Assembly: GCA_018064345.1 (NCBI GenBank)
Contig: JAGHVK010000069.1
Span: forward strand, 1-48,576
Length of the DNA stretch: 48,576 bases
Reading direction: 5' to 3'
Source of the DNA: Candidatus Cacconaster merdequi
GTDB lineage: Bacteria > Bacteroidota > Bacteroidia > Bacteroidales > UBA932
The notes under the pieces were generated by a model that was not told the origin of the DNA, did no database searches, and worked only from the letters and a program-made list of their open reading frames with translations. Positions 5,927 to 14,099 of the stretch are shown piece after piece. Position 1 is the stretch's first letter. The number at the start of each line of letters is the position of its first letter. The position numbers were made by a program, and so were the translations under genes.

Positions 5927-5944
5927 GGCTGGCTTCAAAAAAAC

Positions 5945-5975
5945 TTTGCAGAAAAATCAAATTATAGTAACTTTG
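5945..5975 (+). promoter_or_regulatory. Promoter of the arginine operon
   Basis: TTTG (5945-5948), a 19-bp spacer, then TAACTTTG (5968-5975) is a near-ideal Bacteroidota -33/-7 promoter. Transcription should start near 5982, about 12 nt before the leader-peptide ATG. The two elements lie in an 11-bp direct repeat AACTTTGCAGA (5942-5952 and 5969-5979). Confidence 0.8.
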
Positions 5976-5993
5976 CAGAGAGATAAAAAGAAT

Positions 5994-6038
5994 ATGTTTA
6001 CAGGAAACCATAACAACCGACGTTGCCTCTCGTTCTAA
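5994..6038 (+). CDS. Arginine attenuator leader peptide (14 aa)
   Basis: The ORF reads MFTGNHNNRRCLSF and stops at TAA 6036-6038. Codons 9 and 10 are CGA CGT (6018-6023), both Arg, and they lie at the end of the 5' arm of the first leader hairpin, exactly where a stalled ribosome would disrupt it. The stop codon overlaps the start of the antiterminator strand. The ATG lies about 12 nt after the predicted transcription start. The peptide itself probably has no function beyond controlling ribosome position. Confidence 0.75.
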   Translation: MFTGNHNNRRCLSF

Positions 6039-6070
6039 GAGGTAGGTTGTTGTGTGTTTCTTTTCAAGAT

Positions 6071-6105
6071 AACTTGCCTCTTGCGGGGCAAGTTTTTTTA
6101 TTTTT
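6071..6105 (+). terminator. Intrinsic terminator of the arginine attenuator
   Basis: An 8-bp stem AACTTGCC / GGCAAGTT (6071-6078 with 6087-6094) with an 8-nt loop is followed by a T-rich tract through 6105, just before the ATG at 6111. Its 5' arm is also the partner of the antiterminator strand at 6037-6048. Confidence 0.88.
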
Positions 6106-6110
6106 AAGAA

Positions 6111-6677
6111 ATGAATTTCATCGTATCGGTGGCAGATGAGAGCCACGAGAAATTTGCGAAGGAGATTACTGAAGAGATTTTCATCTCCGCGCAGGAAAGG
6201 CATACCGGAATAGCGAAGAGGACTCCGGAATACCTTATCGAGAAGATTCGTGCCGGAAAGGCTGTGATTGCGACTACCGAAGACGGCCAGTTTGCAGGAT
6301 TCTCGTACATAGAATCCTGGGGAGGAAAGTCTTACGTAGCCAATTCGGGTTTGATAGTAGCCCATCGTTTCAGGGGACAGGGCCTCTCAAGAAAAATAAA
6401 GGAACAGACTTTCATCCTGTCGCGCAAGCTGTTCCCTGACGCAAAGATATTCAGCATCTCCACGGGCGGTGCAGTGATGCGCCTCAACTATGAATTCGGC
6501 TTCCGTCCGGTACCGTTCAGCGAATTGACAACTGACCCCGAGTTCTGGAAAGGATGCGAAGGCTGCCGTAATTACGACATACTCCAGCGGAACAATCAGG
6601 AAAGATGCATCTGCACAGGTCTGCTTTATGACCCGTTTGACCGAATCACAATCAAAACACCTGATGAACAAAAATAA
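6111..6677 (+). CDS. GNAT acyltransferase, probable N-acylglutamate synthase
   Basis: A 188-residue GCN5-related N-acyltransferase. The acyl-CoA binding loop is RFRGQG (residues 86-91) in motif A. The C-terminus has a Cys cluster C149-x2-C152 ... C166-x-C168 that could bind metal. It is the first gene after the arginine attenuator and lies 11 bp before argG. No ArgA/ArgJ-type synthase is present, so the context assigns the first pathway step: acylation of glutamate, by succinyl- or acetyl-CoA. As I recall, Bacteroides genetics has linked a GNAT gene in the same position to arginine prototrophy. The acyl donor is probably succinyl-CoA, given the argF' type downstream, but this is inference. 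Confidence 0.75.
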   Translation: MNFIVSVADESHEKFAKEITEEIFISAQERHTGIAKRTPEYLIEKIRAGKAVIATTEDGQFAGFSYIESWGGKSYVANSGLIVAHRFRGQGLSRKIKEQTFILSRKLFPDAKIFSISTGGAVMRLNYEFGFRPVPFSELTTDPEFWKGCEGCRNYDILQRNNQERCICTGLLYDPFDRITIKTPDEQK

Positions 6678-6688
6678 AGACAATAGAT

Positions 6689-7900
6689 ATGGACAAGAAG
6701 AAAAAAGTTGTAGTTGCCTTCAGTGGTGGTCTTGACACCTCCTACACGGTGATGTATCTGGCAAAAGAGAAAGGCTATGAAGTTTATGCCGCTTGCGCGA
6801 ACACCGGCGGATTCTCACCCGAGCAATTGAAGACGAACGAAGAGAATGCCTACAAACTGGGTGCAAAGCAGTACGTTACCATCGACGTTACAAAAGAGTA
6901 CTACGAGAAGAGTCTGAAATATATGGTTTTCGGAAATGTTCTGAGAAACGGCACATATCCGATTTCCGTCTCTTCCGAACGTATATTCCAGGGAATGGCC
7001 ATTGCACGTTACGCCCGCCAGATAGGTGCTGATGCGATTGCACACGGTTCCACAGGCGCCAGAAACGACCAGGTACGCTTCGACATGACTTTCCTCGTGA
7101 TGTGTCCGGATATGGAAATCATCACACTTACCCGTGACGGGAACCTGTCAAGGAAGGAAGAGGTGGACTACCTGAATGCAAACGGATTCAACGCCGATTT
7201 TGCGAAGTTGAAATATTCATACAACGTAGGCATCTGGGGTACCTCAATCTGTGGAGGCGAAATCCTCGACTCTGCAAAAGGTCTTCCTGAGACCGCCTAT
7301 CTGAAACAGGTGAAGAAAGATGGTTCTGAACTGCTGAAGCTCGATTTCACCAAGGGAGAGCTCACCGGAGTGAACGGCAGGCACTTCGACGACAAGATTG
7401 CTGCCATCCAGGAGGTTGAGAAGATTGGTGCGGCATACGGAATCGGACGCGGCATGCACGTGGGTGACACCATAATCGGAATCAAGGGAAGGGTCGGATT
7501 CGAAGCTGCCGCTCCTATGCTGATCATAGGCGCACACAAGTTCCTCGAAAAGTTCACTCTTTCAAAGTGGCAGCAGTATTGGAAGGACCAGGTCGCCAAC
7601 TGGTACGGAATGTTCCTTCACGAAAGCCAGTATCTTGAACCTGTGATGCGTGACATCGAGGCGATGCTTTCCGAGAGCCAGAGGAACGTTACCGGAACCG
7701 TTACTCTTGAAGTGAGACCGCTCTCATTCTCCACTGTCGGAGTCGAGTCCGAGAACGACCTCGTGAAATCCAAGCTGGGAGAATACGGAGAGACTCAGAA
7801 AGGATGGACAGCAGAAGATGCAAAAGGCTTCATCAAGGTTCTCTCCACTCCGTTGAGAGTATATTACGGTAACCATTCAGAGGAATCCGAAAAGCTATGA
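6689..7900 (+). CDS. argG: Argininosuccinate synthase
   Basis: A 403-residue cytosolic ligase that joins citrulline and aspartate with ATP to form argininosuccinate. The PP-loop SGGLDTS (residues 12-18) binds ATP. The signature GSTGARNDQVRFD near residue 120 and the substrate loop NVGIWGTSICGGE near residue 175 are present. Length is normal for the family. Its stop overlaps the argC start by 4 bp (ATGA), so the genes are coupled. In this operon citrulline must come from a deacylated N-acylcitrulline, which fits argE and argF' downstream. Confidence 0.95.
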   Translation: MDKKKKVVVAFSGGLDTSYTVMYLAKEKGYEVYAACANTGGFSPEQLKTNEENAYKLGAKQYVTIDVTKEYYEKSLKYMVFGNVLRNGTYPISVSSERIFQGMAIARYARQIGADAIAHGSTGARNDQVRFDMTFLVMCPDMEIITLTRDGNLSRKEEVDYLNANGFNADFAKLKYSYNVGIWGTSICGGEILDSAKGLPETAYLKQVKKDGSELLKLDFTKGELTGVNGRHFDDKIAAIQEVEKIGAAYGIGRGMHVGDTIIGIKGRVGFEAAAPMLIIGAHKFLEKFTLSKWQQYWKDQVANWYGMFLHESQYLEPVMRDIEAMLSESQRNVTGTVTLEVRPLSFSTVGVESENDLVKSKLGEYGETQKGWTAEDAKGFIKVLSTPLRVYYGNHSEESEKL

Positions 7901-8859
7901 TACGCGTCGGTATCATAGGCGGAGCCGGATACACTGCCGGAGAGCTCATCAGGATTCTGGTCAATCATCCTGACGTGGATATTGCCTTCGTTCACAGTTC
8001 GTCCAACGCAGGAGCATATCTTTCTGATATCCACGAAGGTCTGATAGGCGACACTTCGATGGTGTTCTGCGAATCGTTCGACCTCAATGAAGTGGATGTG
8101 CTGTTCCTCTGTTCCGCGCACGGGAAAAGCAGAGAATTCTGGAGCCTGAATGCCATGCCGGACAGATTGAAAGTCATTGACCTGGCCCAGGATTTCCGCG
8201 ATCAGAGCGAAGGATATGTCTACGGCCTCCCGGAATTGCAGAGAGAGCGGATTTCGAATGCCCGCAAGATTGCCAATCCCGGATGCTTCGCAACGGCAAT
8301 CCAACTTGCCCTCCTTCCTATGGCATCTGCAGGACTTTTGCCGGAAGAAGTGCAGGTGACGGCTGTCACAGGTTCTACCGGTGCAGGTGTGAAACCATCC
8401 GCCACCACCCATTTCAGCTGGCGCAACAATAATCTGTCGGTGTACAAGGCCTTCGAACACCAGCATCTTCTCGAAATATGCCGTAACCTGAAGGCTGTCC
8501 AACCATCTTTCTCAGGTAAAGTCAATTTCGTTCCTATGCGCGGTGACTTCGCGAGAGGCATCTTCGCTGAGGCGAGTATGAAGTCCTCTCTTTCTGAGGA
8601 TGAGATACGGTCGCTGTACAAAGACTTTTACAAAGATGCTGCATTCACCTTCGTAAGCGAATCCCCTGTGGATTTGAAACAGGTGGTGAACACCAACAAA
8701 TGCGTCATCTCCATTGAAAAGCACTCTGACAACCTGCTTGTATGCTCTGCTATCGACAACCTGCTCAAGGGAGCAAGCGGGCAGGCGGTACAGAATATGA
8801 ACATCATCTGCGGCCTGAATGAAAAGACAGGCTTGAAACTCAAAGCATCAGCATTTTAG
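7897..8859 (+). CDS. argC: N-acyl-gamma-glutamyl-phosphate reductase
   Basis: A 320-residue NADPH-dependent reductase that makes N-acylglutamate semialdehyde. The Rossmann motif GIIGGAGYTAGEL begins at residue 6. The catalytic Cys is C130 in ANPGCFATA. The family PMRGDFARGIF segment near residue 215 is present. The start overlaps the end of argG by 4 bp, and argD follows after 2 bp. Given the argF' type, the natural substrate may be the N-succinyl rather than the N-acetyl compound; the sequence alone does not decide this. Confidence 0.93.
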   Translation: MIRVGIIGGAGYTAGELIRILVNHPDVDIAFVHSSSNAGAYLSDIHEGLIGDTSMVFCESFDLNEVDVLFLCSAHGKSREFWSLNAMPDRLKVIDLAQDFRDQSEGYVYGLPELQRERISNARKIANPGCFATAIQLALLPMASAGLLPEEVQVTAVTGSTGAGVKPSATTHFSWRNNNLSVYKAFEHQHLLEICRNLKAVQPSFSGKVNFVPMRGDFARGIFAEASMKSSLSEDEIRSLYKDFYKDAAFTFVSESPVDLKQVVNTNKCVISIEKHSDNLLVCSAIDNLLKGASGQAVQNMNIICGLNEKTGLKLKASAF

Positions 8860-8861
8860 TC

Positions 8862-9992
8862 ATGAATCTCCTTGAAGTTTATAAATTGTGGGACATTGAG
8901 CCTGTAAAAGGGCTTGACACTGCTCTGTGGGACAAGGACGGAGTGGAATATACCGACCTTTACGGCGGACACGCGGTAATCTCCATCGGGCACTGCCATC
9001 CGCATTACGTGGAGATGCTGTCCACCCAGCTTCACAAACTCGGCTTCTATTCAAATGCCGTACAGAATTCCCTTCAGAAACAACTTGCCGTAAAACTCGG
9101 AAAAGTATCGGGATATGACGACTACAAACTGTTCCTCTGCAACAGCGGTGCCGAGGCCAACGAAAATGCAATAAAAGCAGCCTCTTTCCAGACATCAAGA
9201 GAGAGGGTTCTTGCCTTTTCGAAAGCTTTTCACGGCAGGACTTCCGGAGCCGTGGCACTGACCGACAACCCGAAGATACAGTCAGCATTCAACAAGGGAC
9301 ACAAAGTGACGTTTGTCCCTTTGAACGACATAGAGGCCGTGAAGAAGGAACTTGCCGGACGCCAGTATGCTGCGGTCATCATTGAGGGCATTCAGGGCGT
9401 AGCCGGCATCTTCGAACCTGAGGACGGATTCCTGAAGTCTCTGCGCCAGGAGTGCGACAAGACCGGTACCTGCCTCATCCTTGACGAGGTACAATCCGGA
9501 TATGGCCGCACCGGCAACTTCTTCGCTCATCAGCATAGTGGCATCAGGGCTGACATCATAACCACAGCCAAGGGAATGGGTAACGGATTCCCTATAGGAG
9601 GCGTTCTGCTTTCACCTGCAATCAAGGCGGAATATGGTATGCTCGGCACTACTTTCGGAGGCAACCACCTCGCCTGCACTGCCGCCCTTGCGGTATTGGA
9701 CGTGATTGAGAATGAGCATCTTATAGAAAATGCAGCAAAAATAGGGGAATATTTCAAGGAGGCTTTCAGAGACGATGCCGCAATAAAGGAATACCGTGGC
9801 CGTGGGCTTATGATAGGCCTTGAGCTCAAAGAGGAATTCATAGGTCTGCGTGACAGGCTTCTCTTTGAAGAGCACTTCTTTACCGGAGCAGCAGGAGCTG
9901 CTGTCATACGGCTTCTGCCGTCACTTACGATTTCAAAGGAAACGGCGGGAAGATTCGTCAAGTCGTGGAAAAAACTTACTTCACAGAAATGA
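8862..9992 (+). CDS. argD: N-acylornithine aminotransferase
   Basis: A 376-residue class III PLP aminotransferase. It converts N-acylglutamate semialdehyde to N-acylornithine with glutamate as amino donor. The PLP Schiff-base lysine is K237 in TTAKGMGNGFPIGG. The cofactor-binding region CNSGAEANE near residue 95 and the LDEVQSGYGRTG segment near residue 210 are clear. The gene ends in an ATGA overlap with argF'. E. coli-type ArgD enzymes also accept succinylated substrates, so this step would work for either acyl form. Confidence 0.93.
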   Translation: MNLLEVYKLWDIEPVKGLDTALWDKDGVEYTDLYGGHAVISIGHCHPHYVEMLSTQLHKLGFYSNAVQNSLQKQLAVKLGKVSGYDDYKLFLCNSGAEANENAIKAASFQTSRERVLAFSKAFHGRTSGAVALTDNPKIQSAFNKGHKVTFVPLNDIEAVKKELAGRQYAAVIIEGIQGVAGIFEPEDGFLKSLRQECDKTGTCLILDEVQSGYGRTGNFFAHQHSGIRADIITTAKGMGNGFPIGGVLLSPAIKAEYGMLGTTFGGNHLACTAALAVLDVIENEHLIENAAKIGEYFKEAFRDDAAIKEYRGRGLMIGLELKEEFIGLRDRLLFEEHFFTGAAGAAVIRLLPSLTISKETAGRFVKSWKKLTSQK

Positions 9993-10942
9993 GACACTTT
10001 ACAAGCATAAAACAGATTGGCGACCTTCAGAAAGCTATGGACTTGGCCTTTGAGGTTAAGAAGAACCCTTTTGCCGACCAACACCTCGGACGCAACAGGA
10101 CCCTTCTTCTCATCTTCTTCAACAATTCTCTTCGCACCAGGCTCAGCACCCAGAAAGCAGCTCTCAATCTGGGAATGAACGTCATTGTACTTGATGTGAA
10201 CCAGGGTGCATGGAAACTTGAAACCGAAAGAGGCGTAGTGATGGACGGTGACAAATCCGAGCATCTTCTTGAAGCAATACCGGTGATGGGCTCTTACTGC
10301 GACATCATAGGTGTCCGTTCGTTCGCAAGATTCGAGAGCAAGAAGGATGACTACGAAGAGGTTATCCTGAACCAGTTCATAAAGTATTCAGGAAGGCCTG
10401 TTTTCAGTATGGAGGCTGCAACACGTCATCCTCTTCAGACATTCGCGGATATGATTACCATCGAAGAGAACAAGAAATGCGCGAAGCCGAAGATTGTAAT
10501 GAGCTGGGCCCCGCATCCGAAATCTCTTCCTCAGTCAGTTCCCAATTCGTTTGCTGAGGGAATCAACCTCACTGATTATGAATTTGTAATAACTCATCCG
10601 CACGGATATGAGCTTGCACCGGAATTTGTCGGAAACGCACGTATCGAATACAATCAGGACAAGGCCCTCGAAGGAGCTGATTTCGTATATGCCAAGAACT
10701 GGTCGGCCTATTCTGACCCTAATTACGGCAAAGTGATCAACACTGACCGCTCGTGGACAATCACGACGGAGAAGATGGCTTTGACAAACAATGCATTCTT
10801 CATGCACTGCCTTCCTGTCAGAAGGAATATGATAGTGAGCGACGAAGTTATTGAGAGTCCTCAGTCCCTTGTAATACCGGAAGCAGCCAACCGCGTGGTA
10901 TCTGCCCAGACTGTACTGCGTGAAATTCTCAGAAGTCTTTAG
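9989..10942 (+). CDS. argF': N-succinylornithine carbamoyltransferase (argF')
   Basis: A 317-residue transcarbamylase of the AOTCase/SOTCase branch, which acts on acylated rather than free ornithine. The carbamoyl-phosphate motif is S47-L-R-T-R51. The acyl-specific loop holds W75 and the segment MDGDKSEH (85-92). By simple counting, S90 aligns with Pro90 of Bacteroides fragilis SOTCase and Glu92 of Xanthomonas AOTCase. In published mutagenesis, replacing that Glu by Pro, Ser, Ala or Val turned AOTCase into SOTCase, so Ser points to N-succinylornithine. The C-terminal HCLPVRRNM motif is present. I chose the ATG at 9989 (MRHFTSIKQ), which overlaps the argD stop, over an upstream in-frame ATG. 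Confidence 0.9.
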   Translation: MRHFTSIKQIGDLQKAMDLAFEVKKNPFADQHLGRNRTLLLIFFNNSLRTRLSTQKAALNLGMNVIVLDVNQGAWKLETERGVVMDGDKSEHLLEAIPVMGSYCDIIGVRSFARFESKKDDYEEVILNQFIKYSGRPVFSMEAATRHPLQTFADMITIEENKKCAKPKIVMSWAPHPKSLPQSVPNSFAEGINLTDYEFVITHPHGYELAPEFVGNARIEYNQDKALEGADFVYAKNWSAYSDPNYGKVINTDRSWTITTEKMALTNNAFFMHCLPVRRNMIVSDEVIESPQSLVIPEAANRVVSAQTVLREILRSL

Positions 10943-10944
10943 CC

Positions 10945-11718
10945 ATGGATATCAAGGTCATCAAGATTGGAGGGAACGTAGTGGAGAACGAGGCTATGCT
11001 GTCGCGTTTCGTAAAGGATTTCGCAGCCATCAAAGGGGCAAAGATTCTTGTCCACGGAGGCGGAATAATGGCAAGCGAGCTTCAGAAGGCACTAGGACAG
11101 ACTCCGGTAATGATTGAAGGGAGGAGGGTCACTGACAGCGAGGCGCTCAAGGCAGTGACAATGACTTACGCCGGATGGTGCAACAAGCACATTGTGGCTC
11201 TTCTTCAGGCCGCAGGGTGCAACGCCCTTGGCCTGTGCGGAGCTGACGCAAACGTGATAACAGCATTAAAAAGGCCGGCAAAACCTATAGACTATGGTTA
11301 CGTCGGAGATATCGTTCCTGAAGGAATCAACTGCGCCATCCTTCTCAAATTCATTGAAGCCGGTATCACTCCCGTTCTATGTGCCATCAATCACGATGGC
11401 AAGGGCAATCTTCTGAACACCAACGCAGATACAATTGCATCGAGCGTAGCTTCAGCCCTCTCTTCCGAAGCAGATGTGGACCTGGTCTACTGCTTCGAGA
11501 AGAACGGTGTCCTTTCGGACAAGAACGATGATAATTCTGTAATTGAAACAATTACACCACAGTATTATGCCGAATTGAAAGCCTCCGGCACAGTCGCTGA
11601 CGGAATGATTCCCAAACTTGACAATGCCTTCAGGGCAATCGAGGCAGGCGTACGCAGCGTAATGATCAAACACGCCGGGAATCTTTCCAACAACATACAG
11701 ACAACACTGAAGAAGTAG
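10945..11718 (+). CDS. argB: N-acylglutamate kinase
   Basis: A 257-residue amino-acid-kinase-fold enzyme that phosphorylates N-acylglutamate with ATP, the second pathway step. The N-terminal KIGGNVVE and the glycine-rich VHGGGIMAS (around residues 36-44) form the phosphate-binding loops. LNTNADTIAS near residue 155 and KLDNAFRAIEAGVRSV near residue 220 are typical of the family. The short N-terminus lacks the extra helix of arginine-inhibited hexameric NAGKs, so feedback control by arginine is not obvious. It starts 2 bp after argF'. Confidence 0.92.
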   Translation: MDIKVIKIGGNVVENEAMLSRFVKDFAAIKGAKILVHGGGIMASELQKALGQTPVMIEGRRVTDSEALKAVTMTYAGWCNKHIVALLQAAGCNALGLCGADANVITALKRPAKPIDYGYVGDIVPEGINCAILLKFIEAGITPVLCAINHDGKGNLLNTNADTIASSVASALSSEADVDLVYCFEKNGVLSDKNDDNSVIETITPQYYAELKASGTVADGMIPKLDNAFRAIEAGVRSVMIKHAGNLSNNIQTTLKK

Positions 11719-11734: not shown

Positions 11735-12826
11735 ATGGAGAAGAAACTGATTGACATACTGAAGATTGACGCGCTGGAGATGCTGCGTGACCTCGTCCGC
11801 ATCCCTTCCGGGACCGGCAACGAGGAGGCTGTCAGCAATATGGTAGCAGAAAGATTCTCCGAGTGGAACATCTGTTTTGAAAGATACGGCTGGAACATCG
11901 TGTGCCGCCAGGATAACTTCGACCCGACAAAGAGGACTCTGATGCTTTGCGCCCACCTCGATACCGTCGCACCGGGTGAGAATTACAGTTTCAACCCCTA
12001 TTCTCCTGTTCAGGAGTCCTTTGCTGATGCCGTATACGGGCTTGGAAGCAATGATGACGGAGGCAGCGTGGCTGCCCTGACTGCCACATTCAGATATCTG
12101 GCAGGAAAATCCTTGCCTTTCAACCTGATACTTGTGCTCTCGGTTGAAGAAGAGAAATCCGGACCGAACGGAATGAGAAAGCTCTGGAAAGAGAATCTTT
12201 CGAATTTCGTGGATATGGCCATCGTGGGGGAGCCTACCGGTATGAAGGCTGCAACAGCGGAAAGAGGTTTGATAGTGCTTGACTGCACAGCTGACGGAAT
12301 CAGCGGGCACGCAGCCCGCGAGGAGGGTGTCAATGCCCTTTACAAGGCAGTGGAGGACATCGAAAGGCTCCGCAACCACAGATTCGCCAGGCGTTCGGAT
12401 ACTATGGGAGACGTACATCTTGCCGTCACTCAAATAAATGGAGGGACAGCACACAATGTAGTGCCCGACAGGTGTACATTCGTAGTGGACGTGCGTCCGA
12501 CGGACGTATATGACAACAAAGCCCTTGTTGAAGAACTTCAAGCCGAGTGCAGCAGCACCCTGGTCGCACGCAACCTGACCCATCAGTCATCTTCAGCAAT
12601 GAAGGATTCCCCTCTTGTCAAATGTGCCCTGGACATTGGTCTGGAAACATTCATATCCCCCACTACTTCCGACTGGATGCTGATTGACTGCGACGCCATC
12701 AAGATGGGTCCGGGCGACTCGGCACGTTCCCACAAGAAAGACGAATACCTGCTCAACAGCGAACTGTCCGCCGGTATTGACATTTACATACAATTCATAC
12801 AAAAATATGCAGACACTCTGGAATAA
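11735..12826 (+). CDS. argE: M20-family N-acyl-ornithine/citrulline deacylase
   Basis: A 363-residue di-zinc M20 amidohydrolase. The metal ligands are visible: CAHLDT near residue 70 (His, catalytic Asp), GSNDDGG near 107 (bridging Asp), EEEKSG near 137 (catalytic and ligand Glu), and a C-terminal ARSHKKDE (His). In this pathway, acylornithine is carbamoylated before deacylation, so the substrate is expected to be N-succinylcitrulline or N-acetylcitrulline, releasing citrulline for argG. It lies 16 bp after argB, and its last 20 bp overlap the start of argH. Confidence 0.88.
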   Translation: MEKKLIDILKIDALEMLRDLVRIPSGTGNEEAVSNMVAERFSEWNICFERYGWNIVCRQDNFDPTKRTLMLCAHLDTVAPGENYSFNPYSPVQESFADAVYGLGSNDDGGSVAALTATFRYLAGKSLPFNLILVLSVEEEKSGPNGMRKLWKENLSNFVDMAIVGEPTGMKAATAERGLIVLDCTADGISGHAAREEGVNALYKAVEDIERLRNHRFARRSDTMGDVHLAVTQINGGTAHNVVPDRCTFVVDVRPTDVYDNKALVEELQAECSSTLVARNLTHQSSSAMKDSPLVKCALDIGLETFISPTTSDWMLIDCDAIKMGPGDSARSHKKDEYLLNSELSAGIDIYIQFIQKYADTLE

Positions 12827-14099
12827 AGGCACTCAGGCCACCAAATCCGTGGAAGATTTCACCGTTTGCGGTGACCGCCAACTCGATATGGCACTTGCAA
12901 AGTATGACGTCACAGGCTCGAAGGCCCATATCAGGATGCTTGAGAGCATAGGCCTGCTCACTGCCGAAGAACTCGCCCTGCTCACCCGGGAATTGGACAA
13001 CATACTGTGCGACATAGAAAAAGGAAAATTCATCCTCGAGGATGAAGTGGAGGATATACATTCGCAGGTGGAACTGCTTCTGACGCGCTCTTTAGGTGAC
13101 ATAGGCAAGAAGATCCATTCCGGACGCTCACGCAACGACCAGGTGCTCGTGGACATAAAGCTTTTCCTCAAAGATGAGCTGAAACTTTTCAGAAGCGAAA
13201 TCCTCGACCTTTTCGAAGAACTCCAGAGACTGAGTGAAAAGTACAAGGACATTCTGGTTCCCGGCTATACCCACGGGCAGACAGCGATGCCTTCCTCTTT
13301 CGGAATGTGGTTCGGAGCATACGCGGAAAGCCTTGCGGAGGATATGCACCTTGTTGCCGGAGCATACAGGGTCGTGGACTGCAATCCCCTCGGATCCGCA
13401 GCGGGTTACGGCAACTCATTCCCTCTTGACCGCGAAATGACGACTGCTGACCTCGGCTTCGCCACTCTCGATTTCAACAGCATCTGTGCCCAGCTCAGCA
13501 GAGGCAAATGCGAAAAGGCCGTTGCCTCCGCACTCGGAGGTGTAGCCCTTACTTTGGGGAAGTTTGCAGCGGATTGCTGTATGTATATGTGTCCGAATTT
13601 CGGATTTATCTCCTTCCCGGCGGAGCTGACCACAGGCTCAAGCATAATGCCGCACAAGAAGAATCCTGATGTATGGGAGATAATCCGCGGCCACTGCAAC
13701 CGCATTATGGCGTGCGAGAATGAAATATCGATGTTGTGCAGCAATCTCCAGCACGGTTATCACCGCGATTTTCAGTTACTGAAGGATATCCTGTTCCCAG
13801 TGCTGACAATCGCCCACGATTCCCTTCGGATGGCGGTATATATGATTTCCCAAGTCAAGGTAAACCGCAACATCATCGACAACTCCCTGTATGACCCTGT
13901 CTTCACTGTGGAAGAGGTAAACCGCAGGGTACTTGCCGGAGAAGCTTTCCGCGATGCCTACAAAGCCGTAGGAATTGAAGTGGCAGAAGGAAAGTTCAAA
14001 GCCGACAAGAGCTTGAAACATACCCACATAGGCAGCATAGGAAATCTTTGCAACGACCGTATAGCCGAAAAGATGAAATCTGCCGCCGACTTTATCTGA
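12807..14099 (+). CDS. argH: Argininosuccinate lyase
   Basis: A 430-residue lyase of the fumarase/aspartase superfamily that splits argininosuccinate into arginine and fumarate, the final step. The superfamily signature GSSIMPHKKNPD is present near residue 276. DIHSQVE and SGRSRNDQV (around residues 85-115) form other active-site regions, and TAMPSS holds the substrate-binding Thr region. I chose the ATG at 12807 (MQTLWNKG), which overlaps argE by 20 bp; earlier in-frame ATG codons lie inside argE and give no family similarity. It is the last gene of the operon. Confidence 0.95.
   Translation: MQTLWNKGTQATKSVEDFTVCGDRQLDMALAKYDVTGSKAHIRMLESIGLLTAEELALLTRELDNILCDIEKGKFILEDEVEDIHSQVELLLTRSLGDIGKKIHSGRSRNDQVLVDIKLFLKDELKLFRSEILDLFEELQRLSEKYKDILVPGYTHGQTAMPSSFGMWFGAYAESLAEDMHLVAGAYRVVDCNPLGSAAGYGNSFPLDREMTTADLGFATLDFNSICAQLSRGKCEKAVASALGGVALTLGKFAADCCMYMCPNFGFISFPAELTTGSSIMPHKKNPDVWEIIRGHCNRIMACENEISMLCSNLQHGYHRDFQLLKDILFPVLTIAHDSLRMAVYMISQVKVNRNIIDNSLYDPVFTVEEVNRRVLAGEAFRDAYKAVGIEVAEGKFKADKSLKHTHIGSIGNLCNDRIAEKMKSAADFI

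Follow-up and report, generated by a model that had tools for sequence, protein, structure and literature searches.

A predicted arginine-codon transcription attenuator ahead of the arginine operon of a Bacteroidales bacterium

The arginine operon of Candidatus Cacconaster merdequi is preceded by a short leader which we read as a ribosome-mediated transcription attenuator of the classical type. Its signal would most likely be arginine, in the form of charged tRNA-Arg, and we place the probability of this reading at about 0.78. The window, i.e., the whole stretch of DNA that was analyzed, comprises 48,576 nucleotides, and all positions refer to its forward strand. The mechanism would be an ordinary one, found where it was not expected; structure supports it well and conservation gives it no support.

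The leader element and the operon behind it

Four features follow one another in the stretch between genes at 5927-6110: a promoter-like pair, a leader ORF, a two-part hairpin and a U-tract hairpin. The preliminary description of this DNA had listed a promoter, a leader with CGA CGT, a hairpin, a 12-pair antiterminator and a terminator, and each of these could be read where it had been placed. The promoter-like pair (5945-5975) consists of TTTG at 5945-5948, 19 intervening nucleotides and TAACTTTG at 5968-5975; it presumably corresponds to the TTG/TAnnTTTG promoter of Bacteroidota, which it resembles, and the RNA would start near 5981. An ORF scan places the leader ORF at 5994-6038, with ATG at 5994-5996, 14 sense codons and TAA at 6036-6038, and the peptide MFTGNHNNRRCLSF is its predicted product. 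In this frame lie the putative control codons CGA CGT (Arg-Arg, 6018-6023), i.e., codons for the likely product of the operon. CGA is the rarest Arg codon, accounting for 7 of the 186 Arg codons in 13 window genes.

The predicted protector hairpin (6002-6062) is made up of an outer stem, 6002-6018/6045-6062, and an inner stem, 6024-6030/6038-6044. The antiterminator 5' arm (6037-6048) can form 12 pairs, two of them G-U, with a 3' arm at 6071-6082 which overlaps the 5' arm of the terminator, and the two structures are thus mutually exclusive. The intrinsic terminator itself (6071-6105) has a stem at 6071-6080/6085-6094, a loop at 6081-6084, a U tract from 6093 and a hairpin energy of -13.8 kcal/mol, and it ends 5 nt upstream of the first operon gene.

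Eight genes follow the leader with gaps of 16 nt at most: GNAT, argG, argC, argD, argF', argB, argE and argH. The first (6111-6677) encodes a GNAT-type acetyltransferase whose match to Acetyltransf_7 (E 8.6e-4) stays under the Pfam cut-off and which had no NCBIfam match; judging by its place, it is probably the N-acetylglutamate synthase. Matches above cut-off were obtained for argC (7897-8859; TIGR01850), argB (10945-11718; TIGR00761) and argH (12807-14099; TIGR00838, in a searched stretch that started one codon before ATG 12807). The remaining names are based on strong best NCBIfam matches that fall below the cut-offs together with operon context, namely argG (6689-7900; argininosuccinate synthase, E 1.5e-79), argD (8862-9992; TIGR00707, E 8.1e-109), argF' (N-acetylornithine carbamoyltransferase, 9989-10942, with 9989 the start that we chose; 282.9 bits, the cut-off being 288) and the argE/dapE-type deacylase (11735-12826; TIGR01910, E 1.6e-37).

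Ribosome-mediated attenuators govern amino-acid operons such as his, trp, leu, thr and phe, among others; to our knowledge, arginine is not among the classical attenuated biosynthetic operons. The window leader is like these systems in its codons for the product amino acid, its protector and antiterminator and its terminator with a U tract immediately ahead of the first gene, but unlike them in the amino acid concerned, in its Bacteroidota host and in having two control codons only. With plentiful Arg the ribosome would reach UAA and cover the antiterminator 5' arm, the terminator would form and RNA polymerase would halt ahead of the GNAT gene. Untranslated RNA would also terminate because the 6002-6062 hairpin would lock the antiterminator 5' arm for as long as no ribosome stalls. 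If charged tRNA-Arg is scarce, the ribosome would instead stall on CGA/CGU and open this hairpin, the freed 6037-6048 would pair with 6071-6082, no terminator would form and the eight-gene operon would be transcribed. We infer from these parts that the terminator acts in vivo and that it responds to Arg.

Folding, chance and rival readings

The leader as a whole (5982-6110) folds with an MFE of -43.8 kcal/mol (z -6.15; 0 of 200 shuffles were equally stable), and in this fold the outer stem carries a bulge at 6055, the Arg codons sit at an internal loop (6019-6023) and the inner stem and then the terminator follow. In a masking scan we folded the RNA left free by a ribosome, with the first free base 12, 14 or 16 nt past the first A-site base, by equilibrium and not kinetic folding. 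Across the three footprint lengths, a ribosome with its A site on CGA or CGU gave a probability of 0.98-1.00 for the antiterminator core and 0.00-0.01 for the terminator. The terminator reached 0.96 with UAA in the A site, and 0.92-0.97 in ribosome-free RNA starting anywhere from 5982 to 6002. Folding with and without a ribosome footprint had been proposed as a check at the outset; in this equilibrium model it bears out the logic claimed there, with the antiterminator and read-through upon a stall at the Arg codons, and termination upon completion of the leader. Termination is also favored in the absence of translation.

This method does not yield switches everywhere, as illustrated by three his leaders, where the terminator hairpin stayed part of the MFE structure wherever the ribosome was stalled in the masking scan; conversely, failing the scan does not disprove a leader. 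The organism's own genome carries MKMSNNNRHHHHRI before hisG (L270, G000:C28), and two of three relatives (L271, L272) carry MRTINSNLHHHHRILR and MRTISAYHLHHRILPVR at the same place, each with HHHH or HLHH and a terminator-like hairpin. The third relative (G013, L273) showed no His leader before hisG, where the gene start is uncertain. The His leader in the same genome lends support to the attenuator reading of the window leader, as do Arg-rich leaders at the same place phylum-wide.

A common origin of the arg and his attenuators of this genome, suggested by a shared AACAACCG, found no support: the Smith-Waterman score was 16, and 808 of 1,000 shuffles reached as much. Even so, L270 and L272, both his leaders, score no more than 19 against each other, so divergence could mask such homology. 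No match to trpE (PF04715) was seen among the four genomes searched.

Where the ribosome stalls does not by itself single out Arg. Read-through was favored at all three footprints with any of the codons Gly4 through Cys11 in the A site, and at some footprints only with Thr3 and Leu12, so Asn and His stalls would flip the fold too. The same switch might then answer to a signal that is not, or not only, arginine, such as asparagine, whose three AAC codons outnumber the two Arg codons in the leader, or a general slowing of translation. We consider this unlikely. The product of the operon is arginine, not asparagine, and the Asn codons also lie within the stem, which may account for them. Additionally, in the phylum survey described below, at least four Arg among the last ten codons of an upstream ORF were counted at 48 of 121 loci (one on the reverse strand), whereas any other residue reached this number at four loci or fewer. 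Under a base-composition model, RR would occur in a random 13-codon leader with a probability of 0.054, and two or more Arg with one of 0.23, so the Arg-Arg pair on its own is weak evidence. The case for an attenuator rests on RNA geometry more than on this pair, and it is the pair and the operon together that point to arginine as the signal.

The background for that geometry was 232,837 bases, i.e., the window and 20 further stretches of the same genome, in which 22 terminator-like sites were found with filters that had been loosened after a stricter version (9 terminator-like sites, none kept) missed the window site. The best uninterrupted antiterminator spans 16 pairs (five G-U) at the window site and nine at most at the other 21. 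This, with the z-score of the fold and a promoter-like pair lying after the preceding gene but ahead of the terminator, makes it very unlikely that we are dealing with an ordinary terminator, an operon free of leader regulation and an accidental combination of small ORF and antiterminator pairing. In favor of such an accident, the five closest loci manage without this leader, and in one of them (L004) a U-tract hairpin lies 96 nt ahead of the operon and may just end the preceding gene. A ligand or an RNA-binding protein, in place of a ribosome, is a highly improbable reader of the structure: the hairpin is long and stable and translation of the ORF is a prediction, but Rfam at gathering thresholds gave 0 matches in the window, to T-boxes, riboswitches or any other family, and the geometry suits the footprint of a ribosome placed on the codons or at the stop.

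ArgR and Arg leaders in the genus

A motif search of the 1,500 nt upstream of the window operon detected no argR, in agreement with the initial observation that none adjoins it, and the genome-wide search recommended at that stage gave 0 matches to PF01316 or PF02863 in the organism's own genome (84% complete, 6% contamination). Control by ArgR would call for an ArgR encoded in the genome, and the protein is probably missing from the organism itself and not merely from an incomplete assembly. In other Bacteroidales argR lies beside the same GNAT gene, a predicted DNA-binding repressor at the same operon. Within the genus, the ArgR domain was found in 18 of 40 genomes, that of the window not among them, while the leader DNA was found, in a single copy, in the window genome and had no match in the other 39.

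In a tree of 110 GNAT sequences, with group labels assigned from our own lists and a motif, the window falls in a six-member clade (support 100/100). Its five clade mates (L002, L003, L004, L033 and L034) lack argR in the 1,500 nt upstream by motif search and, by ORF scan and reading, have neither the window leader, this terminator nor a gene-proximal Arg leader. Two of them, L004 (the same locus as L035) and L034, have unrelated U-tract hairpins at -96 and -115, the former just past the preceding gene. With these nearest loci lacking the leader, neither covariation of its stems nor conservation of its Arg codons can be demonstrated, and neither was seen across the 39 genus genomes and five nearest loci.

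Twenty-eight genus genomes have a readable GNAT upstream region, in which argR directly precedes GNAT in 17, an Arg leader in seven and neither in four. The seven (the window and six loci that we call type B) are without ArgR and the 17 were assigned no leader, an exclusion for which Fisher's test gives 2.8e-4, not corrected for kinship. However, type B is one clade, so the exclusion amounts to about two independent cases. Leader labels were assigned by reading and not by the ORF rule alone: matches to the rule inside argR (L013, L023, L024) or some 280-315 nt upstream (L033, L034, L117) were not counted, and G005, whose contig begins inside the gene, was left out. In 14 loci (L044, L058, L067, L073, L077, L080 and others) argR is divergent from the arg operon, and TGCAT/ATGCA-like boxes, which resemble ARG boxes, can be seen by eye between the two.

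The type B loci (L006, L007, L014 and L019-L021; same genus; clade support 99/90) have 19-codon leaders ending RVRR-stop, with a hairpin right after the stop. Their consensus fold shows double changes at 3 of 31 pairs and an unfavorable covariation term (+1.86) from six sequences. A further kind, type C, was drawn from a sample of 80 loci that includes records named Candidatus Cryptobacteroides. Many of its leaders end RRDRR-stop or near variants thereof, a hairpin begins in the last codons, and an element GCAATTGACAATCNNGGTTTGTCTTGC is present as well. The element is exact in 38 of the 80 loci, 26 of which carry an ORF whose last seven codons include two Arg or more. Among 20 type C sequences double changes occur at 2 of 33 predicted pairs, covariation support being thin because the sequence hardly varies. 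Extended by one leading T and with two mismatches at most, GCAATTGACAATCNNGGTTTGTCTTGC turned up in 2 of 393 genomes from the order; the two belong to the window's family, which six genomes represent in that sample. Rfam at gathering thresholds gave no match in the 18 related loci scanned.

The element GCAATTGACAATCNNGGTTTGTCTTGC sits 50-101 nt before GNAT (e.g., L038, L049, L060, L074) with or without an Arg leader, and occurs slightly changed in a few more loci (L040, L099, L101). That it might itself be an ORF was rejected by eye, as variant L041 has an in-frame stop.

Known systems and Arg-rich leaders across the phylum

The nearest Arg-codon precedent that we found is orf34 in the Salmonella speF leader, where, in the portions of the paper available, ribosome pausing at two consecutive Arg codons under low Arg selects an alternative RNA structure (PMC6386406). 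Two consecutive Arg codons are common to both leaders. The speF leader, however, controls ornithine decarboxylase by means of termination that depends on Rho, decay by RNase G and a ribosome site that is hidden, with no intrinsic terminator seen there, whereas the window leader would act on arginine synthesis through an intrinsic terminator (PMC6386406). Within Bacteroidota, clues to leader-peptide attenuation upstream of amino-acid operons, with conserved 5' elements named for hisG and pheA, have been reported for Flavobacterium psychrophilum, and the accessible text names no arginine operon (PMC9723704). Leader-like small ORFs appear in what is available on B. thetaiotaomicron (PMC7366714). 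In a paper from 2010 the authors state that, ermC apart, they knew of no leader-peptide system demonstrated beyond Proteobacteria and Actinobacteria, and add Firmicutes (PMC2965389). We found no Arg attenuator from Bacteroidota in the open literature; a comparative attenuation survey of the same year could hold a related case (Lopatovskaya et al., 2010, as cited in the available text of PMC4833913). The earlier suggestion that an Arg-codon attenuator is undescribed in this phylum is consistent with the open literature searched, but leader-peptide attenuation in general has been reported from Flavobacterium (PMC9723704).

For the phylum survey, GNAT was found in 124 of 296 Bacteroidota genomes, and the upstream region was read at one locus per genome in the 123 besides that of the window; second GNAT matches in seven phylum genomes were left out, and L257 has an upstream region of 172 nt only. 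An Arg-rich leader was defined as an ORF with at least three Arg in its last ten codons and a stop 30-320 nt before GNAT; the window leader itself has two Arg codons, against the three or four used for counting. The 123 loci comprise 2 with argR adjoining, 63 with an Arg-rich leader (some of which, L161, L231, L235 and L248, look doubtful) and 58 with neither, and as many of them are congeneric these counts are not independent. On the reverse strand, used as a control, the rule was satisfied at 10 of 121 loci. Residue by residue, three or more were counted forward versus reverse at 62 versus 7 loci for Arg, 11 versus 5 for Pro and 23 versus 23 for Leu. The leader ends are lineage-specific (RRP-stop, PRRR-stop, FRV-stop). 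Among the 63 leader loci, three (L163, L229, L231) showed a U-tract hairpin no more than 250 nt from GNAT, against 6 of the 123 overall, which makes the window's terminator version an exception. ArgR (PF02863) was detected in 1 of the 63 leader genomes, as a partial match just above the cut-off with an internal stop, and in 2 of the 60 others, namely both with argR adjoining GNAT. Its absence does not, therefore, separate leader genomes from those with neither in this sample.

We tentatively propose, with slightly less than even confidence, that Arg leader peptides are the prevailing control of GNAT-argG across Bacteroidota outside the ArgR-bearing Bacteroidales. They would be lineage-specific elements (RRP-stop, PRRR-stop, FRV-stop, RVRR-stop, RRDRR-stop), mostly without an intrinsic terminator and with an undescribed Rho- or translation-based output, and the terminator version of the window would be a recent replacement in a lineage that had lost ArgR. 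If the attenuator reading is true, arginine would join the amino acids whose synthesis is under ribosome-stalling control, in a phylum in which one would expect ArgR to be in charge, and within one genus a repressor and RNA switches of two kinds or more would have been exchanged at the same operon. The phylum-wide Arg leaders are open to testing, some of them being in families that have complete and probably cultured genomes, and merit a separate study, with the window attenuator as one case beside them.

Eight loci of the survey (L155, L156, L158, L163, L165, L166, L171 and L175) have leaders ending RP-stop or RRP-stop with an CCCGTAAGGG-like hairpin at the stop, followed by a GGAAATAGGTGAGTCCATTTCC- or GAACTTAGGTGAGTCCGGTTC-like hairpin whose stem seems, by eye, to covary. 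In L223, L254 and similar loci the leaders read MQ..LAHRI...PRRR-stop and are alike outside the Arg codons too, so the peptide itself may matter.
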